Shown here piece after piece: positions 5,493 to 39,098 of a stretch of 39,648 bases of DNA. This DNA comes from Chloroflexota bacterium. Its GTDB lineage: Bacteria > Chloroflexota > Limnocylindria > Limnocylindrales > CSP1-4. The DNA is taken from NCBI GenBank assembly GCA_003171255.1, contig PMYK01000052.1:49566-89213 (forward strand). Direction: 5' to 3'. The notes under the pieces were generated by a model. It saw only the letters and a program-made list of their open reading frames with translations. It did no database searches and had not been told where the DNA came from. Made by a program: the position numbers and the translations under genes. Positions within the stretch are counted from its first letter, which is position 1; every line of letters starts with the position of its first letter.

Positions 5493-7850
5493 TCAGGGGT
5501 AGAGGCGAACCCGTCGGTACGGTTCCCGCCCGCGAGAGCGCGAGATCAGGTTGGCCCGCTCGGCCATCTGATGCTGCAGGCGCCGGACGTAGGCATTTTG
5601 CGGCGACAGCTCGACCGGCTCTGCGCCCCGTATGACCATGCCGATCGCCTCCTCGGCTTCGCGTAGGGCGGCCTCGCGAGGATCGACCTCGAGCGAGAAG
5701 ATCGAGGTCAGGCTGGCCTCCATCTGGACGATGGTGTTGCTCTTCAGGACGTAGATCGGCAGGCCACGATCCTCCGCGTCCCGCAGCGCCGTCGTCTTCT
5801 GGCGGTACTCGTTCTTCAGCGTCATCACCACGTCGGCCTCGTCCGGGTCACGGGCGATGATGACCGGCAGCTGGAGCTCCTTGATGGCCTGCTCGAGGCG
5901 CTTGCGGCTGATGCCGTGGGGCAAGACGCGCAGCGTCGGCAGGATCGTCTCGACCTCGCGAATCCGGAGGACCGGGCTGCCGTCGTCACCATCGGTCGAC
6001 GCCCTCAGCCGAACGACATCCGCCAGCGCCTCGTCCTCTTCGCCCAACTCGTCGTCGATGTCCTCACGCTCGACGTCGGAGTCCTCAGCCGAAAGACCGG
6101 CCGCTCGGCGCAGCGGCGTTGGCTGAATCGACGCGCGGTTGACCCTCGCAGGCGACTCGGCCTCGTCGGCGTAGGCTGCTGCCCCGTCGGGCTCGACCGG
6201 AGCGTCGTCGACCTCTTCGGCACGGTAGTCGTTGAGTGCCCGCGTGGCTTGCTTGGTCCAGGATCGCTGCCTCTCGAGCTCACGCAGCTCTCGGGCCCGC
6301 GGCTCCGGCAGCGGCGCCGATCCACGCTCGATTGGGCCTCGGTCGGCTACTTCGTCGAGCCGAAACGGCCCAGCCGCCTCGCCCGCCCACCAGCTCCCGT
6401 CCGAACCACGGCCCGGACCCGAGGCCTGACCCGCGCTTCCGGGCGGAACCGCGAACCGTTCACCGGGGAGCGTATGCCCGCCGGGACCAGCTCCCGGCCG
6501 GCCTTGGCCAGGCGCTCCGGCTCCGCCGCCACCAGTGCTACCGCCCGCTGAGCCGCCACCACCGACATCGCCGCGAGCGCGGCGGGCGCCGTCGCGGACC
6601 TCGCGCGAGCCACGAGCAGGCATCCGCCAGCCTCCGCCGGCGCCGGGGCGGTAGCCGGGTCGCACGGCTCCACGATCGGCATCGGGCCAATCCGACGGGG
6701 CGTGGTACGACCCCGAGCCGCGCCAGCCTGGCTCCGTCCGCCAGCCCGGGCCGGCGCCGACCAGACCGGCGAAGCGGTCACTTCCGAAGCGATCGCTGGT
6801 CATCGCCTCGCGCGGCGACGGCTTGGGTCGCGACTGCGAGCGATGCACTCCGCCGTCGTCGCGCCAGCGCAATTCGGCCGAGATCGGGTCGCCGCGCAAC
6901 ATCGCGTCGACGGTCTCGGCCACGTCGGCGTGGACGGTGACCTTCTCGCGGTCGAGGATCTCGACGATGACGTCGAACGTAGGCGGGGCCTTGCGCTCCA
7001 GGACGCTCTTTTGTGAGCGGCGGCGCCGTGCCTCTTCGTCACCGAGCGTGACCGTGTGAATGCCGCCGATCAGGTCCGTCAGCGTTGGGTTGAGCATCAG
7101 GTTGTCTAGGTTGTTGCCGTGCGCGGTGCCGATCAGCTGCACGCCGCGTTCGGCGATGGTCCGGGCCGCCTGAGCCTCGAGCTCGGTCCCGATCTCGTCG
7201 ATGACGATGACCTCGGGCATGTGGTTCTCGACGGCCTCGATCATCACCTCGTGCTGGAGCGAGGGCGTTCGGACCTGCATCCGCCGCGCTCGACCGATTG
7301 CCGGATGCGGAATGTCGCCGTCGCCCGCGATCTCGTTCGAGGTGTCCACCACGACCACGCGCTTGCCCTGGTCGTCGGCCAGGACGCGAGCGGCCTCGCG
7401 CAGCATCGTGGTCTTGCCGATGCCCGGCCGGCCCATGATCAGGATCGACTTCCCCGATTCGACGAAGTCGTTGATGATGTCGATCGTGCCGTAGACCGCG
7501 CGACCGATGCGGCAGGTCAAGCCCACGATCTTGCCCGTTCGATTGCGGATGGCACTGATCCGGTGCAGCGTCCGTTCGATGCCGGCCCGGTTGTCGTCGC
7601 CGAAAGTCCCGATGTGGTCGACGACGTAGGCGATGTCCGCCTCCGTGATCTCGCGCTCCAAGAGCCTCAACTCGCCGTCGACGAAGCGGGCCTCGGGGCT
7701 GCGGCCGAGGTCCATCACGACCTCGATCAATTGCGCGGGGTCGGTCAGGTCGCGGACCGCCTGCAACACGTCCGGCGGGAGAGAGCTGAGGAGCAAGCCC
7801 AGGTCGTCGGTCAGCTCGCGCCGGTGGGGCGTCGCGCCCGTATCAGTCAC
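5493..7850 (-). CDS. R3H-domain AAA ATPase (Ycf45/SpoIIIAA-like)
   Basis: This is a large protein of about 785 residues. Residues about 100-300 form a P-loop ATPase: Walker A MGRPGIGKTT, Walker B EVIVIDEIGTE, and the family stretch ERGVQLIGTAHGNNLDNLML. This resembles the ATPase domain of SpoIIIAA and chloroplast Ycf45. A Gly/Pro/Arg-rich, presumably disordered linker of about 220 residues follows, then an acidic stretch. The C-terminus holds an R3H-type single-stranded nucleic-acid-binding domain (VRRLQHQMAERANLISRS). The GTG at 7850 is favoured over the ATG at 7865 because AGGAGGAG sits directly before it. It is the last gene of the pdxS-pdxT-acetyltransferase run. The linker makes it longer than most relatives. 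Its function in this lineage is unknown. Confidence 0.86.
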   Translation of the reverse strand: MTDTGATPHRRELTDDLGLLLSSLPPDVLQAVRDLTDPAQLIEVVMDLGRSPEARFVDGELRLLEREITEADIAYVVDHIGTFGDDNRAGIERTLHRISAIRNRTGKIVGLTCRIGRAVYGTIDIINDFVESGKSILIMGRPGIGKTTMLREAARVLADDQGKRVVVVDTSNEIAGDGDIPHPAIGRARRMQVRTPSLQHEVMIEAVENHMPEVIVIDEIGTELEAQAARTIAERGVQLIGTAHGNNLDNLMLNPTLTDLIGGIHTVTLGDEEARRRRSQKSVLERKAPPTFDVIVEILDREKVTVHADVAETVDAMLRGDPISAELRWRDDGGVHRSQSRPKPSPREAMTSDRFGSDRFAGLVGAGPGWRTEPGWRGSGSYHAPSDWPDADRGAVRPGYRPGAGGGWRMPARGSREVRDGARRARGDVGGGGSAGGSTGGGGAGAPGQGRPGAGPGGHTLPGERFAVPPGSAGQASGPGRGSDGSWWAGEAAGPFRLDEVADRGPIERGSAPLPEPRARELRELERQRSWTKQATRALNDYRAEEVDDAPVEPDGAAAYADEAESPARVNRASIQPTPLRRAAGLSAEDSDVEREDIDDELGEEDEALADVVRLRASTDGDDGSPVLRIREVETILPTLRVLPHGISRKRLEQAIKELQLPVIIARDPDEADVVMTLKNEYRQKTTALRDAEDRGLPIYVLKSNTIVQMEASLTSIFSLEVDPREAALREAEEAIGMVIRGAEPVELSPQNAYVRRLQHQMAERANLISRSRGREPYRRVRLYP

Positions 7851-7871
7851 ATCTCCTCCTGCCATGTGCGA

Positions 7872-20312: not shown

Positions 20313-21323
20313 ATGCGCATTCTCGTGACCGGCGGAGCCGGCTACGTCGGATCCGTGTCGGTCGAAGCGTTCCTTGAGGCCGGCCACGAGGTCACCGTCC
20401 TTGACGACCTGTCGACCGGTCACCGCGCCGCGGTGCCTGCAGGGGCAGCCCTCGAGGTCGGCAGCTACGCCGAAGCCACGGCCGTGGCCGCCCTGTTGCA
20501 GCGACGCCGGATCGACGCGGTTCTGCATTGCGGAGCGAAGTCACTCGTCGGCGAGTCCATGACCGATCCGGCGATCTACTTCCGCGCCAACGTGGCCGGT
20601 GGCATCGCCCTACTCGACGGCATGCGCGCGGCCGGTGTGAAGCGGATCGTCTTCAGCTCCACGGCCTCCATCTATGGCATGCCCGATAGGACGCCCGTGA
20701 CCGAGTCGGACCCGCTCCGGCCTATCAACGCCTACGGTGAGACGAAGCGGACCGTCGAGGCGGCGATCGCCTGGTACGGCCATGGCTATGGTCTGCGGGG
20801 AGTGATCCTGCGGTACTTCAATGCCGCCGGCGCGAGCGTCGCGAATGGCGAGGAGCATGCGCCCGAGACGCACCTCATCCCAAACATCCTGGCGGCGGTG
20901 GAGCAGGGTCGCGAGGTGACCCTCTTTGGCGAGGACTACCCCACTCCCGACGGGACCTGTGTCCGCGACTACATCCACGTGAAGGACCTGGCCGCGGCGC
21001 ATCTGGCGGCGCTCGAGGCGACGGAGCCGGCCGATCCCCGAACCGGCCCCGCGACCGGCCCGTGCGAGCCGTTGATCTGCAACCTGGGCAGTGGCACGGG
21101 CTTCAGCAACCGCCAGATCGTGGCCGCCGCCGAGGCGGTGGTGGGCCACGCCATCCCCGTGAAGATGGGCCCGCGCCGCGCCGGGGACCCGCCGGTCCTC
21201 GTTGCGAGCGCCGCCACGGCAGCTGCCGTGCTCGGCTGGCAGCCCCGCCACGACACGATCGAGGAGATGATCGGCTCAGCCTGGCAGTGGCGCCTCGCGC
21301 ACCCGGGAGGCTATGCCGAGTAG
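20313..21323 (+). CDS. galE: UDP-glucose 4-epimerase-like NAD-dependent sugar epimerase
   Basis: The 336-residue protein starts one base after the TPR stop codon. It has the NAD-binding motif LVTGGAGYVGSVSVEA (GxxGxxG), the catalytic region FSSTASIYG and YGETK (Tyr141, Lys145), and the substrate segment RYFNAAGAS, all typical of the GalE branch of extended short-chain dehydrogenases. GalE interconverts UDP-glucose and UDP-galactose, here possibly supplying UDP-sugars for polysaccharide or solute synthesis. The ending GYAE and length match. A different sugar specificity cannot be excluded. Confidence 0.9.
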   Translation: MRILVTGGAGYVGSVSVEAFLEAGHEVTVLDDLSTGHRAAVPAGAALEVGSYAEATAVAALLQRRRIDAVLHCGAKSLVGESMTDPAIYFRANVAGGIALLDGMRAAGVKRIVFSSTASIYGMPDRTPVTESDPLRPINAYGETKRTVEAAIAWYGHGYGLRGVILRYFNAAGASVANGEEHAPETHLIPNILAAVEQGREVTLFGEDYPTPDGTCVRDYIHVKDLAAAHLAALEATEPADPRTGPATGPCEPLICNLGSGTGFSNRQIVAAAEAVVGHAIPVKMGPRRAGDPPVLVASAATAAAVLGWQPRHDTIEEMIGSAWQWRLAHPGGYAE

Positions 21324-21664: not shown

Positions 21665-22354
21665 ATGCCACTCTTCCGACACGCCGCCCCGCCCGCGCCA
21701 CCGGCCGACCCGGCCGATTGGCGGCCCCAGCGTTTCGGTCGAGGCGGCGGCCATTCGATGCGCGATCCGATCATCGAGCCGAGCTGGTCCGGCGTTCGCG
21801 TCCTCGCTCGCGTCAGCGATGGCCACACGGTGTTCAGCGACGAGGAAGGGTTCGACTGCACCGGCGAGTTCGCCGGCGTCGCGGAGGCCGTCGCCGGCGC
21901 GGCGCAGGCCCGCGAGCTTATCTTCGACGGCTTCCTGACGGTCGAGCCGACACAGGTGGTCGCGGGCGTGCCGATGCCCGAGATCGAGGCGCCGAGCAGC
22001 GGCGAGATGATGGCCCAGTTCATCGTCGGTAGCCGCGGCGCTCGGGCGGTCGCGCCCGAACGCCGCCTCGACCCAGACCGTCCGATCGCCTTCGTCGCGG
22101 TCGACCTCCTCGAGATCGACGGCACGCGCCTGCTCGACGTCCCACTGCTCGAGCGCAAACGCCTGCTCGATGGATCGCTCCGCCAGGGCGAGCTGGTTCG
22201 CATAACGCCGTTCGTTCGGCCGCCGATCGACAGCTTCATCGCGACGTGGCGAGGTCTCGGCTTTCGGGCGCTGGTCTACAAGGGCGCCAACAGCCGCTAC
22301 ATCCCGGACGCACCCAACAACGACTGGTCGATCGTCTCGATGCCGAGCCGGTAG
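21665..22354 (+). CDS. ATP-dependent DNA ligase-like protein, catalytic residues lost
   Basis: The 229-residue protein follows the order of an ATP-dependent DNA ligase adenylation domain but lacks the key residues. Motif I (usually KxDGxR) reads SWSGVR at 40-45, so Lys and Asp are Ser. Motif III, usually LDGE, is IFDGFL (Glu is Phe90). The mid-segment AFVAVDLLEIDGTRLLDVPL matches the ligase pattern FxxFDLLxLDG. Motif IV (EGxVxK) is RALVYK, keeping only Lys206, followed by SRYIPDAPNNDW. No OB domain or C-terminal K motif is present. It is probably a pseudoenzyme with a structural or binding role. A distant nucleotidyltransferase other than ligase is the alternative. It is the first gene after the inverted-repeat element. 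Confidence 0.72.
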   Translation: MPLFRHAAPPAPPADPADWRPQRFGRGGGHSMRDPIIEPSWSGVRVLARVSDGHTVFSDEEGFDCTGEFAGVAEAVAGAAQARELIFDGFLTVEPTQVVAGVPMPEIEAPSSGEMMAQFIVGSRGARAVAPERRLDPDRPIAFVAVDLLEIDGTRLLDVPLLERKRLLDGSLRQGELVRITPFVRPPIDSFIATWRGLGFRALVYKGANSRYIPDAPNNDWSIVSMPSR

Positions 22355-22406: not shown

Positions 22407-23870
22407 ATGCCTTCCAGCGCGCTGACTCCCGCAATTAAAGATGAGATCGCCAGGCTCGGTAGTGCCGACATCATGGTCGGGATCCCCAGCTTTCGGAACG
22501 CTGCGACGATCGGCCACGTTGTCCGCGCGGCTCAGGCCGGCCTGGTCCAGTACTTCCCGGACCTCCGGCCGGTCCTGGTCAACGCCGATGCCGGCTCCCC
22601 GGACGGCACCCAGCGAATCGTGGTCGAGACCGAGCCGCCCGGCTACGTCGAGCAGATCCTGCTCGTCCACCCGACCAACCGCCTCGACCGAGTCAGCCTG
22701 ACCTACCCGGCAGTCGACGGCGTCTCCGGCAAAGGCGCGGCCTTGCGAACCCTATTCGAGATGGCGGCGGCGCTCGAAGTCGAGGCGCTGGTCGTAGTCG
22801 ATTCGGACCTTCGATCCATCGTCCCGGAGTGGATCGAGCTGCTGGCCGGGCCGATCCTCAAGGGTGGCTACGACTTCGTGACGCCTCTCTATTCCCGGCA
22901 CAAGTACGACGGCACAATTACCAACACCGTCACCTATCCCGTGACGCGGGCGCTGTACGGGCACCGCATCCGCCAGCCGATCGGTGGCGACTTCGGCGTC
23001 AGCGGCGACCTGATCCGCCACTACCTGGCGCAGGAGGACTGGACGCCCGACGTTTCGCGTTTCGGCATCGATATCTGGATGACGACGACGGCGCTGACCG
23101 GCGGCTTCGCGGTCTGCCAGACACGGCTCGGGGCGAAGATCCACGATCCGAAGGATCCTGGCTCGGACCTGGGCCCCATGTTCCGCCAGGTCGTCGGGAC
23201 GCTGATGACGATGGCCCGCGACAACGCCGAGCGCTGGCTGCCTATCACCGGCAGCCACGATGTGCCGGCCTACGGCTTCGAGCGGTACGCGGAGCCGGCG
23301 CCACTCGAGGTCAACACGCTACGCCTGCTATCGCAGTTCCACGAGGGCTCACTGACCCTCGCCGACACCTGGCAGCGAATCATCGCCCCCGACAATTGGG
23401 AGCAGGTCCTGGGCCTCGCGGCCGAGGCCGGAACCCTGGCCGAGGCCGCGGCCCATCGACTGGGGCTGGGCCGCGAATCGGGCGAGGGCACCGCCGGGCG
23501 ACCCATGCCGTCCACGGACGAGCTGTCAGATGCGGTGGCCGGGTTTCACTTCCCCGACGATCTGTGGGCCCGCGTCGTATACGACATCCTCCTTTCGGCG
23601 AGCTTCGGCGAAACGGAGATGGATCGGCTCATGGCCGCGTTCGTGCCCATCTACTTCGGCCGCGTCGGCAGCCTGATCATCGAGGACCGCCGGCTGTCGG
23701 AGGAACAGGCCGAGGAGCACGTCGAGCGGCAGGCCCGTGAATTCGAGCTGCGCAAGCCGTATCTAGTCGAGCGATGGCGCGAGGCCGCCAGTGCCGCGCA
23801 AGCCGCCCAGACGGCGCACGCCGCCGCGCCGACTCCAGACACCGCTCCGGCCGTGGAGCCGCGACGTTGA
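22407..23870 (+). CDS. GT-A glycosyltransferase, mannosylglycerate-synthase-like
   Basis: The 487-residue protein begins with a GT-A fold: DIMVGIPSFRNAATIGHVVR, then VLVNADAGSPDGT, then SGKGAALRTLFEM and VVVDSDLRSIVPEWI, where DSD is the metal/nucleotide-binding motif. A second block, RQPIGGDFGVSGDLIRHYLA followed by FGIDIWMTTTAL, resembles the IEQPLGGELLM and WGIDTLYTF segments I recall from Rhodothermus mannosylglycerate synthase (GT78). Its gene overlaps the GpgS-type gene (TTGA), which also fits a glycerate-sugar pathway. The donor and acceptor are not readable, and a general family 2 glycosyltransferase is the cautious call. The C-terminal tail is Ala-rich. Confidence 0.78.
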   Translation: MPSSALTPAIKDEIARLGSADIMVGIPSFRNAATIGHVVRAAQAGLVQYFPDLRPVLVNADAGSPDGTQRIVVETEPPGYVEQILLVHPTNRLDRVSLTYPAVDGVSGKGAALRTLFEMAAALEVEALVVVDSDLRSIVPEWIELLAGPILKGGYDFVTPLYSRHKYDGTITNTVTYPVTRALYGHRIRQPIGGDFGVSGDLIRHYLAQEDWTPDVSRFGIDIWMTTTALTGGFAVCQTRLGAKIHDPKDPGSDLGPMFRQVVGTLMTMARDNAERWLPITGSHDVPAYGFERYAEPAPLEVNTLRLLSQFHEGSLTLADTWQRIIAPDNWEQVLGLAAEAGTLAEAAAHRLGLGRESGEGTAGRPMPSTDELSDAVAGFHFPDDLWARVVYDILLSASFGETEMDRLMAAFVPIYFGRVGSLIIEDRRLSEEQAEEHVERQAREFELRKPYLVERWREAASAAQAAQTAHAAAPTPDTAPAVEPRR

Positions 23871-25921
23871 CCCACACCCCGCTGCCGTCGCGGATCCTGA
23901 TTCCCGTCGTCAACCCGCTCACCGCCCAGGAGCTCGTCCGGATCGGTGCCTCGCTGATGGACCGCCGGACGGGCGTGCTGACGGTCCTGGGCATCGTCGA
24001 GGTTCCGGAGGGTACGCCGCTGAGCGAGGGCGCGACCCAGGCCCGCCAGGCCCGCCGGCTGCTGCAGCGTGTCCTCGACTACGCCCCCGAAGGCGTGACG
24101 ATCCACCCCATCGTCCGCATCGGGCGGCGCGCCGCCGAGGGCGTGATCGAAGCGGCAACCGAGCTAGATGCCGACCTGATCGTCTTCGGCTGGGGCGGCA
24201 AGCCTCCGACGACTCGGGCCGGAGTACCCACCTCAGTTTTCTCGCCGACCATCGACGAGGTCGCGCGCGACGCGCCGTGCGACATCGCGGTGATCAAGCA
24301 ACGCGGCCCGGCCGAGATTCGGACGGTCCTCGTCCCGATCCGCGGCGGCCCTCACGCCGTGCTGGCCCTGCGCTTCGCCAACGCCCTGGGCCACCGCAAC
24401 GAGGCCAAGGTCCTGGCCCTGCACTTCGTGCCACGCGGCACCTCCGAGGGCATCCGGACGCAGTCGGAGCGGGCCCTGGCGCACTTCATCCGCCAGCACG
24501 CCGACGGTCATGTGGAGCAGGCCGTGCGCGAGGCAGTCAACGTCCGCAACGCCATCCTGCGCGAGGCTGAGAGCGCCGACGTCGTGGTCATGGGCGCCTC
24601 GGCGGCGCCGGCCACCAGCCACGGCGAGACGTTCCTATTCGGGGCGCTGCCGGAAGCGGTGGCCGCTCGCGCCCGCAAGACGGTCATCGTCGTCAAGACG
24701 CGCGAGGCGATCGGCAAGTCCACGTTCGAGAAGCTCGAGGCCCGGGCCGAGACGCTGGCGGCGGCCGAGCGCGCCGGCTACGAGGCGCGATCGATCCCGC
24801 TTCGAGTCGAGCGCTGGTTCGGCGAATCGAACTTCCACCACCGCGAGTTCGGCGACCTCGACCGCCTGGTCGACCTAAAGCGTAAGCAGGGACTGACGGT
24901 CAGCCTGGTCCTGCCGGCACTCAACGAACAGGAGACGATCGGCGTCATCGTCGAACGGGCGCGGCGCGAGCTGATGGAGCGTCATCCGCTGCTCGACGAA
25001 CTGCTCGTCATCGACTCCGACTCGTCGGATCGAACACGCGAGGTCGCCGAGTCCGAAGGCGCCCGAGTCGTGGTCCACCAGAACGTCCTGACCCGCTACG
25101 GCAGCTTCACGGGCAAAGGCGAGGCGCTGTGGAAGAGCCTCTACGAGACGTGCGGCGACATCGTGGTCTGGGCCGACACCGACGTCCGCAACTGGCATCC
25201 GCGGATGGTCTACGGCACCGTTGGGCCGCTCATCGCCGAGGAGCGCATCCAGTACGTCAAGGGCTACTACCGCCGGCCGATCGTCGAGGGCGGGCTGCTC
25301 AAGGAAGGCGGCGGCGGACGGGTCACCGAATTGGTCGCGCGGCCGCTGCTTAACCTCTTCTTCCCGGAGCTCTCCGGGCTGATCCAGCCGCTGTCGGGCG
25401 AGTACGCCGGACGCCGCAGCCTCCTGGAGACGCTGCCCTTCTTCACGGGCTATGCCGTCGAGATCGGGCACCTCATCGACGTCGCCGAGCGATGCGGCCT
25501 CGAAGGGTTGGGCCAGGTGGACCTCGAGCGCCGGGTCCATCGCAACCAGGAGCTCGAGGGCCTGTCGCGGATGAGCTTCGTCATCCTCCAGGCCGTCATG
25601 AAGCGGCTCGAGGAACGGCGCAAAACTCGACTGTTTGCCGAGCTGGGCTCGACGATGAAGCTGCCGAGGTCCGGCCACGGCCGATTGGGTCTGGAGGTAA
25701 TCGAGCTGGCGGACCACGAGCGGCCACCGATGATCAGGATCCCGGAGTACCTCGAGAAGCGGCGCAACGATCCCGGCTCGATCGGCGCGGCTGCGGCGGC
25801 GGCTGCGGCGGCCGCGGCGCGAAATGGCCGTGGCTCGAGTGCGGCGGTCGCCGAGCCGCCTTCTGAGGGAGCGCCGGCTGCGGGAGCGCCGGCTGCGGCC
25901 GCCCCGGAGACCGAGGCGTGA
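23867..25921 (+). CDS. gpgS: Usp-Usp-GpgS fusion: glucosyl-3-phosphoglycerate synthase with tandem universal stress domains
   Basis: The 684-residue protein starts at TTG overlapping the previous stop as TTGA. Residues about 8-145 and 150-278 look like two universal stress protein folds (beginning RILIPVVNPLTAQELVRIGA and RTVLVPIRGGPHAVLALRF; ends DIAVIKQ and TVIVVKTRE). Residues about 340-610 form a GT81 domain: TVSLVLPALNEQETIGVIVE, LLVIDSDSSDRTREVAESEG, the DTD metal motif at 437-439 (VVWADTDVRNW), IQYVKGYYRRP and GYAVEIGHLIDV, matching mycobacterial GpgS. GpgS makes glucosyl-3-phosphoglycerate from UDP-glucose and 3-phosphoglycerate, a precursor of glucosylglycerate or methylglucose lipopolysaccharides. 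The C-terminal tail is Ala/Pro-rich. The stress domains may sense nucleotide or stress status. The fusion is in one uninterrupted frame. Confidence 0.86.
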   Translation: MTHTPLPSRILIPVVNPLTAQELVRIGASLMDRRTGVLTVLGIVEVPEGTPLSEGATQARQARRLLQRVLDYAPEGVTIHPIVRIGRRAAEGVIEAATELDADLIVFGWGGKPPTTRAGVPTSVFSPTIDEVARDAPCDIAVIKQRGPAEIRTVLVPIRGGPHAVLALRFANALGHRNEAKVLALHFVPRGTSEGIRTQSERALAHFIRQHADGHVEQAVREAVNVRNAILREAESADVVVMGASAAPATSHGETFLFGALPEAVAARARKTVIVVKTREAIGKSTFEKLEARAETLAAAERAGYEARSIPLRVERWFGESNFHHREFGDLDRLVDLKRKQGLTVSLVLPALNEQETIGVIVERARRELMERHPLLDELLVIDSDSSDRTREVAESEGARVVVHQNVLTRYGSFTGKGEALWKSLYETCGDIVVWADTDVRNWHPRMVYGTVGPLIAEERIQYVKGYYRRPIVEGGLLKEGGGGRVTELVARPLLNLFFPELSGLIQPLSGEYAGRRSLLETLPFFTGYAVEIGHLIDVAERCGLEGLGQVDLERRVHRNQELEGLSRMSFVILQAVMKRLEERRKTRLFAELGSTMKLPRSGHGRLGLEVIELADHERPPMIRIPEYLEKRRNDPGSIGAAAAAAAAAAARNGRGSSAAVAEPPSEGAPAAGAPAAAAPETEA

Positions 25922-27171
25922 CCGAGCACCGCCAGGATCGGCTGCGCGTCCTGCTGGCCCCGGACTCGTTCAAGGGGTCGCTGTCTTCCGTGGACGTGAC
26001 TCGGGCGCTCGCAGAGGGCTGGGCACGGGCGCGCCCACACGATGAGCTGATCCTCGCCCCGCTCGCCGACGGCGGCGAAGGCACCCTCGCGGCGATCGCC
26101 GAAACGGGCGGCTGGGAGTGGCAGGAGTGCCCCGCCCACGACCCGATGGGCCGGCCGCTCACGGCGCACTGGCTGCTCTCCGCCGACGGGCGCCGCGCGG
26201 CCGTGGAGCTGGCCGAGGCATCGGGGCTGTCGCGATTGCCGGACGGCGAGCCGCGGGCACCGCTCGCGGCCACGACCGAGGGGACGGGCGAGATCCTGCA
26301 GGCGGTTCTCGACGCCGGCGTTCGGCACGTGCTGCTGGGCGTGGGCGGGAGCGCCACGACGGACGGGGGTTCCGGGCTGCTCCACGCCCTTGGCGTTTGG
26401 TATCGCGGCAGCACGGGTGGCCGTCTGCCGGCGCTGCCGGGGCCGATTCCGGACCTGGCGGCAGTGGACCTCGCGGCTCTGGATCCGCGACTCAGCGAGT
26501 TGGAGATGCGCATCGCCTGCGACGTCACGAACCCGCTACTCGGCGAACACGGCGCCGCCGCGACATACGCACCGCAGAAGGGGGCGTGGCCGGAGGACAT
26601 CGAGACGCTCGAGGCCTGGCTGACGCACTATGCCGATCTGCTCGAAGGGGCGGCCGGGACGCGGGCCCGGGAAATCCCCGGCGCCGGCGCCGCGGGCGGG
26701 ACGAGCTTCGGCCTGCTCTGCCTGGGGTCACGGATGCGCCTGTTCGAACTGGTCCCCGGCATCGATGTCGTGATGCAGGAGACAGGCTTCGACGCGCGGC
26801 TGGCCACGGCCGACCTCGTGATCACGGGCGAGGGCCGCATCGACGAGCAGACCGCGTACGGCAAGACAGCCCTCGGAGTAGCCCGCAGGGCGGCCGCTGC
26901 CGACGTCCCGTGTCTGGCCATCGGCGGCGGCGTCACGCCGGAGGGGGCGGCAGCACTGGCCGCGGCCGGGACGCTGTCTGTGCCGGTCCTGGACCAGCCG
27001 ATGTCGCTGGAAGATGCGATGAGCCAGGCGGCGCCACTGGTCGCGGCCGCGGGCGAGCGACTTGCCCGGCTGGTGGAGCTCGGCACGGTCGTCGGGGAGC
27101 GGCGATCGGCCCGCCTGGGCGCGCGCGAGCCCGGTGACCGTGAGGTCGGCGCTCGAGAGGCCGGTCGATGA
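25918..27171 (+). CDS. glxK: Glycerate kinase (GlxK family)
   Basis: The 417-residue protein starts at GTG overlapping the previous stop (GTGA). It begins RVLLAPDSFKGSLSSVDVTR and contains PLADGGEGTLAAI, the phosphate-binding LLGVGGSATTDGGSGLLHAL and the C-terminal ADLVITGEGRIDEQTAYGKT, all diagnostic of bacterial glycerate kinases. The enzyme phosphorylates glycerate to 2- or 3-phosphoglycerate; which product is not readable. Here it may feed 3-phosphoglycerate to the upstream GpgS-type enzyme or recycle glycerate from glucosylglycerate. The last 25 residues are Arg/Gly-rich. It overlaps the next gene by 4 bp. Confidence 0.93.
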   Translation: MTEHRQDRLRVLLAPDSFKGSLSSVDVTRALAEGWARARPHDELILAPLADGGEGTLAAIAETGGWEWQECPAHDPMGRPLTAHWLLSADGRRAAVELAEASGLSRLPDGEPRAPLAATTEGTGEILQAVLDAGVRHVLLGVGGSATTDGGSGLLHALGVWYRGSTGGRLPALPGPIPDLAAVDLAALDPRLSELEMRIACDVTNPLLGEHGAAATYAPQKGAWPEDIETLEAWLTHYADLLEGAAGTRAREIPGAGAAGGTSFGLLCLGSRMRLFELVPGIDVVMQETGFDARLATADLVITGEGRIDEQTAYGKTALGVARRAAAADVPCLAIGGGVTPEGAAALAAAGTLSVPVLDQPMSLEDAMSQAAPLVAAAGERLARLVELGTVVGERRSARLGAREPGDREVGAREAGR

Positions 27172-28067
27172 CGCCGGCCGCCAGGCCCGGCCCCAAGCCC
27201 ACGGCCAATGCCCAGCCCATGGCCAAGGCCCAGCCGAAACCCAAGCCCAAGCCGAAGGCCAGGCCAAAGGCCGATCCCGAGGCGCTGGCCCGCGCCTGGG
27301 CAGTTCGCCTGGACGCCAAGCGCCCGGGCTTGCTCACATTCGTCCTCGACCGCCTGGCCGAAGCGAACGGTCGACCGGTCTGGCAGCCGCGCCTCGACCC
27401 GGTGAGCCAACTGATCCTGACGATCCTCACCGCCAACAGCGCCGACATCAACGCCGAGGTCGCCTTCGGGGCACTCCGGGAAACCTATCCTTCGGCACCC
27501 AGGCCCCCGGATGCCTCGCTCGAACCCCAGACCTGGCCCGGCTGGGGCGGCGTCGGGCTGCCCGACCTGCCACCGCCGGACTGGGCCGTCGTCGAGGCTG
27601 CGCCGATCCCCGAGCTGACCGACGTAATTCGCCCCGGCGGGCTGGCCAATCAGAAGGCGCCGCGCGTACAGGCCGCGCTACGGGCATTGGTCGCCAACGG
27701 CGGCAACCACTCGCTGCAGTTCCTCGCATCGAAGCCGCCGCTGGAAGCGCGCGACTGGTTGTCGGCAATCCCCGGCATCGGCAAGAAGACCGCCTCGGTG
27801 GTGCTCCTATTCAGCTTCGGCACGCCGCTGATGCCGGTCGATCGCCACGTCTTCCGCGTCAGCCAGCGCGTCGGCCTGCTACCGGAGAAGTCCGACCCCG
27901 ACGCCGCCCACGACTACTATCTCGCGATGCTGCGGCCCGAGCAGATGTACGAGGCTCACGTCTCCCTGATCACCCACGGCCGCCGCACCTGCCACGCCCG
28001 CAATCCCGACTGCGAGCATTGCCCCGTAGCCCCGCGCTGCCGCTACTTCGACCCGAACGCGGGGTAG
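27168..28067 (+). CDS. nth: Endonuclease III-like DNA glycosylase
   Basis: The 299-residue protein has an unusual N-terminal tail of about 35 residues rich in Lys, Pro and Ala (KAQPKPKPKPKARPK). The glycosylase core has the helix-hairpin-helix SAIPGIGKKTASVVLLFSFG, with the likely catalytic Lys207, and the Asp of the HhH-GPD motif in MPVDRHVFRVSQR (Asp225). The C-terminal 4Fe-4S cluster motif is complete (CHARNPDCEHCPVAPRC, spacing 6-2-5). Compared with E. coli Nth there is a longer Pro/Trp-rich insert around residues 105-145. The enzyme removes oxidised pyrimidines or related lesions. The start ATG overlaps the kinase stop, so it ends the operon, though its function differs from the others. 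Confidence 0.9.
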   Translation: MTPAARPGPKPTANAQPMAKAQPKPKPKPKARPKADPEALARAWAVRLDAKRPGLLTFVLDRLAEANGRPVWQPRLDPVSQLILTILTANSADINAEVAFGALRETYPSAPRPPDASLEPQTWPGWGGVGLPDLPPPDWAVVEAAPIPELTDVIRPGGLANQKAPRVQAALRALVANGGNHSLQFLASKPPLEARDWLSAIPGIGKKTASVVLLFSFGTPLMPVDRHVFRVSQRVGLLPEKSDPDAAHDYYLAMLRPEQMYEAHVSLITHGRRTCHARNPDCEHCPVAPRCRYFDPNAG

Positions 28068-35615: not shown

Positions 35616-36539
35616 TCAGCCCTTGATGGCGCCGCTGAGTGCGCCGCCGCTAAGGAACATGCGCTGGAACATGAGGAACAGCGCAATCGGGAAGAGCGTG
35701 GCTACCGCCAGCGAGGCCAGGAAGAGGTCGAGCTGGATGCCCCTCTCGAGGTCCGGTAGTCGCACGGACAGCGGCTGGACGGCCAGCGACGGCAATACCA
35801 GCTTCGGCCACAGGTAGTCCTTCCACGTTGCGATCACTGCGAAGACCGAGACCACGCCCACGATCGGGCGCGACATCGGCAGCACGATCGACCAGAAGAG
35901 GCGGAAAGGACCGGCCCCATCGACTTGAGCAGCCTCAAAGATCTCACGAGGCAGGTTGTCGAAGAACCGCTTGATGATCACGACGTTGAACGCGCTCGCC
36001 CCGGCCGGCAGCCAGACTGCCCAGAACGTGTCGACGAGCTTGATGTTGACGAGTGGCAGGTCAAGGACCGTCAGGTACAGCGGCACGAGCAGCACGACCG
36101 AGGGCACGAACATGGTGCCGAGGATCATCCCGTACAGGATTCGCGAGCCCCTCGGTCGAAGCACTGAGAGTGCGTAGCCAGCGGAGGTCGCGACGGTGAT
36201 CTGGCAGAGCCACGACCCGATCGCAATCCAGACCGTGTTCATGAAGAAGCGTTCGATGTGGACCTTGGTGAACGTCTGGACGAGGAGGTCCAGGTTGAAG
36301 CCGTTGGGCCACAGGGCCATCGGCTGCCGGAGCGTGTCCTGGGTTGGCGTGACGGCCGCCTTGGCCAGCCACAGGATCGGCCCGAGACCGACGATCAGGA
36401 GCCCGATCAGCGTGACCGCGTGGAGGCTCTGGACGGACCAACGGATCCGACGCTTGTGCCAGTCCGCCAGCGAGATGATGCCGCGCTGGGCTGTCGGCAG
36501 GCTCTTTCGACTGTGCCGGAAGGGCAGTTGCAGCTTCAT
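35616..36539 (-). CDS. Sugar ABC transporter permease, MalG-type
   Basis: The 307-residue membrane protein starts at ATG 36539, overlapping the stop of the upstream permease as ATGA, so the two are coupled. It has six predicted membrane segments, starting with HAVTLIGLLIVGLGPILWL. The cytoplasmic EAA loop, which binds the ATPase, is EIFEAAQVDGAGPFRLFWSI followed by VLPMSRP, as in carbohydrate (CUT1) importers. It forms a heterodimer with the MalF-type permease. No ATPase gene is in the operon. Confidence 0.93.
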   Translation of the reverse strand: MKLQLPFRHSRKSLPTAQRGIISLADWHKRRIRWSVQSLHAVTLIGLLIVGLGPILWLAKAAVTPTQDTLRQPMALWPNGFNLDLLVQTFTKVHIERFFMNTVWIAIGSWLCQITVATSAGYALSVLRPRGSRILYGMILGTMFVPSVVLLVPLYLTVLDLPLVNIKLVDTFWAVWLPAGASAFNVVIIKRFFDNLPREIFEAAQVDGAGPFRLFWSIVLPMSRPIVGVVSVFAVIATWKDYLWPKLVLPSLAVQPLSVRLPDLERGIQLDLFLASLAVATLFPIALFLMFQRMFLSGGALSGAIKG

Positions 36540-37483
36540 GATTCGGTGCTCCACGACCGGGTCAGCCAGAAGTAGACCGCGGTGAATACGCCGAGGAATG
36601 CAGCCAGCATCAGGCTGAGCGCGGCGGCTTCCCCGAAGTGGCCGCCAAGGCTGCTCCCGAACCCGTACTGGTAGATCAGAAGCAGGACGGTCGTAGTCGC
36701 GTTGGCCGGGCCACCCTCGGTGAGCAGGAAGGGCTCCGTGAAGATCTGGGCCGTGGCGATCAGCTGCAGGATCAGCGTGATAAACAGGATCCCGCGCATA
36801 TGCGGCAGGGTCACGTACCGGATCTTCTGCAGGATCGAGGCGCCATCGACCTCGGCCGCGTCGTATAGCTCAGGCGGGACACTGAGCAGCGCCGCGAGGT
36901 AGATGATCACGGTACCGCCGAAGGCCGCCCATGTCGCCTCGACCACCACCGCCGGCATCGCCATCGCGGCGTCGCCGAGCCACTGGATGGGCCCGAGTCC
37001 CACGTTCCCAAGTATCGAGTTGAAGGCGCCGTTCGGGCCGCCCTTGTAGAAGACCTTCCACAGGAGCACGGCCACGACGGGAGGAACGACTACGGGCAGG
37101 TAGGCGAGGGCGCTGTAGAGGCCCTTGAAGCGGCGCGTCTCGCTCATGATGACCGCCAGAGCGAGCGGTATCGGATAGCCGATGATCAGCGCCAGAAGGG
37201 CGAAGTAGATCGTGTTGGCGACTGACTTGCCGAAGAGCGGGTCCGACAGGACGGTGGCAAAGTTGTCCAGCCCCACCCACGTCGGCGGCGAGACCAGGTT
37301 CGTGTGCTGGACGGACATCACGAACGAGCGGACGATCGGGAACCAGGAAAATGTCCCGAAGATCAACAGGAGCGGCAGCAGGAATGCGAAGGTGCTGAGT
37401 CCGTCTCTGCTGACCCAGGTCAGCAGGCCACGGCGCTTGTGCACACCGCTCGCTGCAGTTACCGGCTCAGCTCTGGAGCTCAT
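36536..37483 (-). CDS. Sugar ABC transporter permease, MalF-type
   Basis: This 315-residue membrane protein has a hydrophobic first helix (FAFLLPLLLIFGTFSWFPIV) and the stretch SVANTIYFALLALIIGYPIP typical of CUT1 permeases. The EAA loop reads ELYDAAEVDGASILQKIRYV followed by TLPHMRG. The start ATG lies about 100 bp from the binding-protein stop, across a strong hairpin. Together with the next gene it makes the translocation pore for a sugar or oligosaccharide; the substrate is unknown. Confidence 0.93.
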   Translation of the reverse strand: MSSRAEPVTAASGVHKRRGLLTWVSRDGLSTFAFLLPLLLIFGTFSWFPIVRSFVMSVQHTNLVSPPTWVGLDNFATVLSDPLFGKSVANTIYFALLALIIGYPIPLALAVIMSETRRFKGLYSALAYLPVVVPPVVAVLLWKVFYKGGPNGAFNSILGNVGLGPIQWLGDAAMAMPAVVVEATWAAFGGTVIIYLAALLSVPPELYDAAEVDGASILQKIRYVTLPHMRGILFITLILQLIATAQIFTEPFLLTEGGPANATTTVLLLIYQYGFGSSLGGHFGEAAALSLMLAAFLGVFTAVYFWLTRSWSTES

Positions 37484-37534
37484 GCCTTCTGCGACTGCCT
37501 TTCTAGAGGGGGGTTGAGGTTTGAAAGATGGTTC

Positions 37535-37569
37535 CGGTGGGGGCCCGCGACCATCGGGCCCCCACCGGG
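37535..37569 (-). terminator. Strong hairpin between binding-protein and permease genes
   Basis: A perfect 14-bp GC-rich stem (37535-37548 with 37556-37569) and a 7-nt loop lie 17 bp past the binding-protein stop codon. There is no T-run, so partial termination or mRNA stabilisation, lowering permease relative to binding protein, is likely. Confidence 0.75.
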
Positions 37570-37585
37570 AGTAATGGACTAGGGG

Positions 37586-39037
37586 CTAGGAAGCGGGGGT
37601 GTCGATGATCTTCTGGACCTTGACGTTGGCTGCGTCGAGCAGCGCGTTGATGTCCGCGTTCTTGTCGGTCAGGACCGCCTGAACAACCGGGTCAAGGGTT
37701 GCGTAGAGATCCTGGGTGTTGTAGAGCGGCTCGACGAAGAGCGGCTCAGAGAAGATCTTGCTGGTGAACGGGGCCATCTGGGCCGTGGGGACGTTGATGT
37801 AGTCCTTGATCCAGAGCTGTGACTGATCGTAGGTGGCCTTGTCGAAGACGGGCAGGCTCGGCACGCCGACGGGCTGGTTGTTGGCCTTGAGGGCCTGGGC
37901 GTCAGCCACGGCGCCGTCCTGGGTGATGAGTCTTTCGATGTAGTAGAAGTCGATCCAATCGACCGCCGCGTCACGCTGATCTTCGGTGGTGAGGACGCTG
38001 ACGGCCGCGAGGTTGCCGCCGCCGAGGACGCCCGCGTTGGGGTCAGTGGCGAGCGGGATGATGGTGACCCCGTAGTCTGCGGGCTTGAGGGCGTTGTTCT
38101 GCACCATGGCGGTGTAGAGGTCAGACCCACCCGTGAACATGCCGATCTGGCCGGCGGCGAAGTCGGCGTTGATGGTGCCCCAGTTGTAGTCGAACGTGGC
38201 GCCCATCGAATTGTCGTCCCAGCGCAGGCCGTGGAGGTATGCGAGGGCTGCCTTGGTCTGGGCATTGTTGACCGTGGCGGAGACCTTGCCGGTCTTCGCG
38301 TCGACGGCTTCCATGCGCCCACCCAGAGCGTAGGTCATGTCAGTAATCTGCCAGCCACCGGTGTTCTGCGTGGCCATCGTGGCGAAGCCGGCGACGCCGG
38401 GGATCTTCGTGGCGATGATCTTGGCGTCGGCCTTGACTTCGTCCCACGTCGTCGGTGGCTTGTCAGGATCGAGGCCGGCCTGCGTGAACAGGGTGCGGTT
38501 GTAGGTCAGCGCATTGCCGTACGCGGAATACGGCACGGCAAAGATCTTGCCGTCAGTGTCCTGCCCGTTGACCAACACGTTCGGGTTGAACTTGGTGACG
38601 TACGGAAGGGCGCGGACGCGGGCGTCGATGTTGACGATCTGATGCTGAGCGATCAGACCCTTGCCGTCGGTGAAGGGGATATTGAACACGGTCGGCAGCG
38701 TGCCGCCCGCGAGCTGGGCCGCGAAGGTCGGGGCGGTCCAGTTGTACTCCACGGAGGTGACGGTGATCCACGGGTACTTGGCCGTGAACTGAGAGATCTG
38801 CGAGTTCAGGGCGTCGACCGCTTCCTGAGTAGCGCCCGGGCGCAGCGCGCCGACGGTGATCGTGGTGGCCTTGTGGGTGTCCGCGGCGGCGGCACTTGCG
38901 ACCGGGGTCGCGTTCGGCGCGGTGGTCGGCGTGGTGGCCGGGGCGGTGGTTGCGCTCGAGGATGAGCAAGCACTGACGGCGAACATGGCCAACGCGGCCA
39001 TGGTCAGCGCCTTTGCGCGAATGGGCTTGACTGTCAT
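37586..39037 (-). CDS. Sugar ABC transporter substrate-binding lipoprotein (CUT1-type)
   Basis: The 483-residue protein has a lipoprotein signal: a basic start, the hydrophobic ALTMAALAMFAVSAC and the lipobox Cys, then a Ser/Thr/Ala/Pro-rich linker. The mature domain follows the family 1 pattern with GATQEAVDALNSQISQFTAK, LPTVFNIPFTDGKGLI, KIFAVPYSAYGNALTYNRTL and PDKPPTTWDEVKADAKIIA, and ends with the closing helices. It binds a sugar outside the cell and delivers it to the two permeases downstream. The ATG at 39037 is preferred, though GAGG sits only two bases away; a GTG at 39049 is the alternative. It is the first gene of the operon, and regulation by the adjacent LacI-type protein is inferred. 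Confidence 0.93.
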   Translation of the reverse strand: MTVKPIRAKALTMAALAMFAVSACSSSSATTAPATTPTTAPNATPVASAAAADTHKATTITVGALRPGATQEAVDALNSQISQFTAKYPWITVTSVEYNWTAPTFAAQLAGGTLPTVFNIPFTDGKGLIAQHQIVNIDARVRALPYVTKFNPNVLVNGQDTDGKIFAVPYSAYGNALTYNRTLFTQAGLDPDKPPTTWDEVKADAKIIATKIPGVAGFATMATQNTGGWQITDMTYALGGRMEAVDAKTGKVSATVNNAQTKAALAYLHGLRWDDNSMGATFDYNWGTINADFAAGQIGMFTGGSDLYTAMVQNNALKPADYGVTIIPLATDPNAGVLGGGNLAAVSVLTTEDQRDAAVDWIDFYYIERLITQDGAVADAQALKANNQPVGVPSLPVFDKATYDQSQLWIKDYINVPTAQMAPFTSKIFSEPLFVEPLYNTQDLYATLDPVVQAVLTDKNADINALLDAANVKVQKIIDTPAS

Positions 39038-39098
39038 TTCCTCACTCACTCTAGGTTTGTCGCTCGATTGCCTTGTGATCTGGGCTCTAATTCCCCAA

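Follow-up and report, generated by a model that had tools for sequence, protein, structure and literature searches.

A predicted compatible-solute operon of Chloroflexota with a GpgS enzyme fused to tandem universal stress protein domains

What does a chain of genes produce in which a glycosyltransferase is fused to two universal stress protein (Usp) domains, and what would these domains do to the enzyme? The question is raised by the window analyzed here, a stretch of 39,648 nucleotides (contig PMYK01000052.1, positions 49,566 to 89,213) from a Chloroflexota bacterium with a genome of 2.56 Mb that is 91% complete. Three consecutive genes, designated G1, G2 and G3, are in question. We read them, with a probability of about 0.6, as a compatible-solute operon that combines a two-step route through a Usp-fused glucosyl-3-phosphoglycerate synthase (GpgS) with a one-step route through G1, an enzyme resembling mannosylglycerate synthase (MGS), and in which a glycerate kinase tunes the glycerate supply. 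The features concerned, all on the + strand, are:

22407..23870, +, G1, MGS-like glycosyltransferase (between GT78 and GT81), 487 aa; probable single-step glucosyl(mannosyl)glycerate synthase
23867..25921, +, G2, Usp-Usp-GT81 fusion, 684 aa, TTG start
23891..24298, +, Usp domain 1 of G2 (aa 9-144), best PF00582 stretch; model strands 9-144
24320..24706, +, Usp domain 2 of G2 (about aa 152-280), second PF00582 stretch; model strands 153-277
24806..25741, +, GT81 GpgS domain of G2 (aa 314-625), NF010496
25918..27171, +, G3, glycerate kinase, 417 aa, GTG start, PF02595/TIGR00045

Gene order and its conservation

All three open reading frames (ORFs) were confirmed at these positions, and they overlap by 4 nt (TTGA between G1 and G2, GTGA between G2 and G3), as a sequence-only reading of the same DNA had described. 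That reading did not mention a fourth, endonuclease III-like (Nth-like) gene, G4, which continues the chain through an ATGA overlap with G3. Its naming of the products as an MGS-like enzyme, a Usp-Usp-GpgS fusion and a glycerate kinase is supported by the predicted fold of G1 and by the family scores of G2 and G3, the latter reaching 366.3 bits with TIGR00045 (cut-off 168.45) and 406.5 bits with Pfam PF02595.

Neighborhoods were compared in 60 loci with wide flanks, 20 from the class of the source genome and 40 from other families. The order G1-G2-G3 is kept in 12 of the 20 class loci, at protein identities of 45-73%; in one of these (L051), G1 and G2 read as a single ORF. In the remaining eight (families f3 and f4), which lack G3, about 3.5 kb separate G2 from a G1 gene upstream of it, and this G1 is accompanied by a GT4 gene and a gene for a 716-aa debranching/MGH1-like enzyme. 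Because the order recurs across class loci, the linkage is considered more than chance.

The GT81 domain and its neighbors point to glucosylglycerate

The GT81 domain of G2 exceeds the cut-off of the GpgS model NF010496 (375.6 versus 262 bits). Its catalytic residues are in place (K417, D437, D439, RVT 485-487, E532 and H558); for GpgS, PMC2581804 gives Lys114, Asp134, Asp136, Thr187, Glu232 and His258 as functional residues. The full set is kept in 31 of 34 aligned fusion members. The three exceptions, L103:7001-8779, L105:5895-7682 and L106:6001-7881, have lost the GGRVTEL motif from the glycosyltransferase part, and the latter two additionally lack the second Asp of the DxD motif; these relatives are possibly inactive paralogues kept as regulators. 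The predicted structure of G2 has a mean predicted local distance difference test (pLDDT) score of 84.4. The placement of its domains relative to each other is uncertain, since the predicted template modeling score (pTM) is only 0.56.

Further evidence on the product comes from the 40 other-family loci, which were inspected with about 7 kb of flanking DNA where the contig allowed and in which one representative per neighbor group was scanned against family libraries. GT4 genes occur in 35 of these loci and a second GT4 in 12, GH13 genes in 14, genes of the His_Phos_1 (histidine phosphatase) type in 11, and MGH1-like hydrolases of 589 aa in six and of the 716-aa type in eight. Of the 15 GH13 sequences found beside the fusion, 14 bear a TETN motif. 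According to PMC7178133, (T/S)ETN marks glucosylglycerate phosphorylase, the genes for which often accompany those for glycerate kinase, GpgS or glucosyl-3-phosphoglycerate phosphatase (GpgP). The TETN-bearing neighbors are therefore the strongest sign that the fused enzyme makes glucosylglycerate, and the glucosylglycerate-type metabolism proposed earlier is strengthened by them. Among the scanned representatives, the GH13 protein scores 189.4 bits with sucrose phosphorylase (below the cut-off of 334.4) and the second GT4 218.6 bits with mannosylglucosylglycerate synthase (below 640); PF22422 matches the MGH1-like hydrolase at 227 bits, and PF00300 matches the phosphatase at 195.8 bits. None of the 40 loci contains a G1 match beyond the GpgS-like similarity of G1 to G2.

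A separate observation concerns a GT4 neighbor. The cluster exemplified by L093:5718-6968 is found in 43 of the 60 loci, where its median position is immediately 5' of the gene for the Usp-GT81 fusion; its representative attains 80.6 bits with mannosylglucosylglycerate synthase (cut-off 640).

The predicted fold of G1 resembles mannosylglycerate synthase

In library scans G1 stays below the cut-offs, both with NF010496 (55 bits) and with Glycos_transf_2. Its predicted structure (pLDDT 87.8) finds the Rhodothermus marinus MGS structures 2y4j, 2y4k and 2bo4 as top Foldseek matches (E 1e-12 to 5e-12; TMt 0.70-0.76), with 442-456 alignment columns that span most of the chain. GpgS structures rank behind MGS and cover a shorter part. 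A segment of the window G1 also matches MGS 2bo4 by sequence (E 0.0008). A further short-segment query of G1 for an MGS alignment gave no match, and a segment of the G1 relative L042 returned five GpgS alignments (E 0.25 to about 1) and none with MGS.

Across all 19 G1 sequences aligned, K109, D132, D134, R164, DGTIT 168-172, PIGG 191-194, D222, K244, H246 and M258 are invariant. When the window G1 is aligned with GpgS, DGTIT lies opposite GGRVT and the preceding loop is about 10 residues shorter in G1. Thr170 of G1 would thereby occupy the position of GpgS Arg185, a residue that presumably helps to hold the acceptor phosphate. In GpgS the acceptor carboxylate is held by Thr187, the counterpart of MGS Thr139 (PMC2581804), and because GTIT aligns under GRVT, G1 appears to keep this threonine. 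The residue equivalences between G1 and MGS are derived from the G1-GpgS alignment, the GpgS-MGS correspondences in PMC2581804, and the fold match.

Proposed pathway

The analysis establishes which domains are present, that the catalytic residues are intact, and that the genes are linked in a conserved way. From this we infer the following scheme of substrates and products. The GT81 domain of G2 would transfer glucose from a nucleotide diphosphate sugar to 3-phosphoglycerate, and the resulting glucosyl-phosphoglycerate would then be dephosphorylated by an unlinked phosphatase. G1 would transfer a hexose, glucose or mannose, directly to free D-glycerate, a reaction for which no phosphatase is needed. 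G3 would shift glycerate between the free pool, which feeds G1, and the phosphoglycerate pool, and would thereby set the balance of the two routes and recycle glycerate. The tandem Usp domains of G2 would form a regulatory, oligomerizing domain acting on the attached GT81 enzyme. If so, many uncultured Chloroflexota can be expected to contain glucosylglycerate-type solutes, and the G1 family, a widespread group of glycosyltransferases weakly named by the libraries used, would have a suggested function.

Evidence weighing against the pathway

Several observations speak against this scheme. The first come from the source genome itself. Library scans of the window genes found no phosphatase gene linked to the operon, in agreement with the earlier statement that the cluster lacks GpgP, and the genome has no match above the cut-off of TIGR01486 (mannosyl-3-phosphoglycerate phosphatase, MpgP), just two weak stretches in one ORF. 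It likewise lacks a match to the MGH1-like hydrolases (control genomes were positive in 7 of 14 cases) and to GH13_18, in a search that had no positive control. The supporting neighbors thus belong to other families and not to the source genome, which is 91% complete. Even among those families, three loci (L088, L103 and L106) carry none of the listed neighbor groups, and five (L074, L078, L087, L090 and L091) have GT4 as their sole listed neighbor. The best NCBIfam matches of the histidine phosphatase representative are to other phosphatases and fall below the cut-off, making it a candidate GpgP only. Three histidine phosphatase matches (L204-L206) reside on other contigs of the source genome, the best-scoring of which is 35% identical to a fusion-linked phosphatase of a relative, and these are candidates for the GpgP step.

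The sugar, too, can be questioned. Structurally, G2 is closest to the mannosyl-3-phosphoglycerate synthase (MpgS) of Rubrobacter (3kia, 41% identity, TMt 0.92), which makes mannose possible, and residue 510 in the PLSGE motif, being S in 24, A in nine and C in one of the 34 members, seems too variable to decide. The operon would then lead to mannosylglycerate, with G2 as an MpgS-type enzyme and G1 as a true MGS using GDP-mannose. The nearest solved structures of both proteins, Rubrobacter MpgS and Rhodothermus MGS, agree with this, as does the PIGG of G1 at the place of PLGGE in MGS, a motif whose meaning is taken from PMC2581804. We nevertheless judge a mannosylglycerate operon improbable: G2 exceeds the GpgS cut-off and has PLSGE, its relatives lie next to TETN-motif genes that are indicative of glucosylglycerate, and the GpgS of M. 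hassiacum, as aligned, shows PLGGE as well, so that the glycine does not mark mannose.

The third point concerns G1. Its fit to the MGS structures is loose (14-16% identity, root-mean-square deviation 5.4-6.1 Å), its profile (A1) scores better with GpgS (5e-9) than with MGS (1e-4), and its acceptor could be glucosylglycerate rather than glycerate. G1 would in that case be a second-step enzyme that adds a hexose to the glucosylglycerate made by G2, or to its phosphate, yielding a diglycosyl-glycerate or the start of a methylglucose-type polysaccharide. The occurrence of G1 outside the phylum bears on this question and was followed in a scan of named genomes, in which 80 loci were taken from at least 574 relatives. 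Forty-two of these were classed as lying outside Chloroflexota, including two without a phylum in the title (L182, Bacterium HR10, and L177, uncultured bacterium), and neighbors were counted anywhere in the locus. A gene for a mechanosensitive-channel transmembrane protein is present in 39 of the 42 loci (representative: PF05552, 48.3 bits), a GpgS_Meth-type gene in 26 (NF040724, 355 bits with a cut-off of 700; NF010496, 59.7 bits), and, in 24, a same-strand gene for a phosphatase of the MpgP family (TIGR01486, 239 bits, above the cut-off of 164.75). On these scores the GpgS_Meth type is only distantly related to GT81 GpgS. G1 therefore travels with two different kinds of GpgS, the fusion in the class and the GpgS_Meth type outside Chloroflexota. 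Such company also counts in favor of the compatible-solute reading as a whole.

The GpgS-type and MpgP-type genes that often accompany G1 there would together already suffice for glucosylglycerate, which would leave G1 a later step, and the GT4 distantly similar to mannosylglucosylglycerate synthase beside the fusion in 12 of the 40 other-family loci fits the same idea. We nonetheless hold a second-step role of G1 to be rather unlikely. The fold nearest to that of G1 belongs to MGS, an enzyme whose acceptor is free glycerate, and in the short acceptor loop of G1 the arginine of GGRVT is missing. Moreover, a layout of this kind has reportedly been found with a single-step enzyme: Fernandes 2007 is said to have described such a synthase of Persephonella marina in one operon with GpgS and GpgP. 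A direct transfer to free glycerate is thus retained for G1 in the pathway proposed above.

Two side observations were made in the same set of loci. The 234-aa channel gene, as in L149:7715-8416 and its relatives, possibly encodes a solute release channel. One locus labeled Steroidobacteraceae (L186), retained among the 42, shows the order of the window class, with G1, G2, the glycerate kinase and the Nth-like gene in succession; this contig is likely mis-binned and probably a misplaced piece of Chloroflexota DNA, or else reflects a transfer.

Distribution of the fusion and of G1

The sequence-only reading had regarded the fusion as an unusual arrangement. This view is not supported: matches that run without a break from the Usp part to where the glycosyltransferase ends were found in about 109 of the 400 Chloroflexota genomes searched (67 of the 109 lie outside the class), and the NCBI model for GpgS already covers the catalytic domain. 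The idea of a local curiosity was accordingly dropped. The count was made by eye (rows starting at or before residue 60 and ending at or after residue 580, one per genome), skips matches that contig ends interrupt or that are spread over two rows, and reads through stop codons; larger tallies of 145/177 and 324/400 include weak one-domain rows and were not taken as numbers of fusions. Within Chloroflexota the architecture is thus common, yet far from universal. In the family of the source genome, 24 of 25 genomes have a strong G2 match, some of them split or cut by contig ends. G2 is absent from all 16 genomes of the sister family f2 (G025-G040, about 1 Mb each), and G1 is absent from the five of these that were searched, a pattern consistent with small genomes having lost the pathway for the solute.

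At E 1e-40 or better, G1 was detected in 59 of the 400 genomes, 47 of which belong to the class and 12 of which do not. With 47 of 59 genomes falling within the class, G1 seems to be a partner at the level of the class, and the fusion seems older and more widely distributed. The closest relatives with names, among the matches listed, are from Chloroflexi metagenome-assembled genomes (up to 89% identity), and those from CSP1-4 and a Candidatus Limnocylindrales metagenome-assembled genome are more distant. Thirteen genomes were reached via named loci, 11 of them not labeled Chloroflexota, and the CSP1-4 genome alone has the fusion; an Aerophobetes genome carries the glycosyltransferase part without Usp (residues 312-640), and a genome labeled Anaerolineae gave no full fusion match. 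Among plasmid records, G1 found one match, which is haloarchaeal. With G2, 70 records matched, none covering 80% of the query; three actinobacterial ones comprise the glycosyltransferase part alone, within residues 313-625.

Our literature search found no paper on a Usp-Usp-GT81 fusion. It had been asked earlier whether the architecture is already common and annotated: it is common and is named GpgS by the NCBI model, but no paper describing it was found.

The tandem Usp module

On the whole of G2, PF00582 scores 79.6 bits in two stretches, and the front half of the model matches the tandem Usp protein Rv2623 (3cis) with E 1e-13. A pattern search on alignment slices found the canonical ATP motif G-2x-G-9x-G(S/T) in neither Usp domain of the window. 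In the 34 aligned members, the strict motif is present in two first and no second Usp domains, and a loosened form in five first ones. The earlier idea of ATP sensing by this module is accordingly not supported by the sequences, though the absence of the motif gives no firm negative, because TTHA0350, a tandem Usp without detectable motif, still binds ATP according to a 2025 review (PMC12159084).

The Usp domains might be passive, serving as a folding or dimerization tag in an otherwise ordinary operon. The absence of the ATP motif from the window and its near absence from the aligned members would agree with this, and yet we find a purely passive module doubtful: it has stayed fused in about 109 of 400 genomes of the phylum, and a similar one occurs in haloarchaeal genes. 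There, the Usp part (about residues 7-277) is 29-34% identical to gene products annotated as amino acid permease or universal stress protein in the 22 rows listed from plasmid records. Furthermore, TeaD, a Usp, restrains an osmolyte transporter without altering its mRNA, as reported in PMC2964678, a study that does not concern a fusion.

A coupling of stress to the GT81 enzyme is a hypothesis whose argument is the fusion itself, and this counts among the points against the pathway as a whole. In its boldest form, put forward here tentatively, the Usp module would be a built-in allosteric controller of GpgS that reads a cell-state signal, which may be an adenylate, another nucleotide or ionic strength, and adjusts the flow into glucosylglycerate accordingly, and G1 together with the glycerate kinase would provide a parallel route from free glycerate. 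If this were true, universal stress proteins, the molecular role of which is described as still poorly known in PMC12159084, would gain an enzymatic output that can be assayed directly and that much of a phylum has kept. Covalent fusion to a simply assayed and widespread enzyme makes Usp function testable in vitro.

Flanking genes and other features of the window

Two further genes of the window lie close to the operon:

20313..21323, +, GalE-like UDP-glucose 4-epimerase upstream of G1, TIGR01179 346.6 bits (cut-off 262.3)
27168..28067, +, G4, endonuclease III-like (Nth-like) DNA glycosylase, overlapping G3 by 4 nt

Of the 12 class loci that have G3, 11 carry the Nth-like gene after it, and the twelfth stops at the contig end; despite the overlap, its function is probably unrelated to the solute genes. 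A GalE-like gene is present in 10 of the 20 class loci and may have some tie to sugar-donor supply, for which the indication is weak. A small protein encoded at 21665-22354 has a match, below the Pfam cut-off, to the adenylation domain of ATP-dependent DNA ligase and recurs in eight of the 20 class loci. Elsewhere, the window encodes a 790-aa protein with a SpoIIIAA-like ATPase domain, PF25516 (labeled PTPase) and R3H (5493-7865, - strand), and, at 35616-39049 (- strand), two ABC permeases with an adjoining 487-aa ORF (37586-39049) that has no Pfam match and is perhaps a substrate-binding protein. An Rfam scan of the window at gathering thresholds gave no match.

Comparison with known systems

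With mycobacterial GpgS and Rubrobacter MpgS, G2 shares the GT81 catalytic residues and 40-44% identity in structure alignments; it differs from both by its two N-terminal Usp domains. G1 finds its closest fold, along most of the chain, in the GT78 enzyme MGS of Rhodothermus marinus, to which it is 14-16% identical, whereas its profile favors the GT81 enzyme GpgS. As to gene layout, the respect compared here, the operon around the glucosylglycerate synthase (Ggs) of Persephonella marina reportedly joins a single-step synthase gene with those for GpgS and a phosphatase, and G1 relatives in Nitrospira, Gallionella and others show a layout of this kind. In the window, by contrast, the GpgS belongs to a different type and carries the Usp fusion, and the place of the phosphatase is taken by a glycerate kinase. 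Neighborhoods of glucosylglycerate phosphorylase described in PMC7178133 similarly hold GpgS near genes for glycerate kinase or phosphatases, but such a phosphorylase was not found in the source genome by the search without positive control. Finally, the tandem Usp module resembles that of the haloarchaeal permeases at 29-34% identity in the rows listed, and TeaD provides an example of a Usp acting on osmolyte accumulation (PMC2964678); unlike in these transporter systems, the partner of the Usp domains in G2 is a glycosyltransferase without any transporter part.

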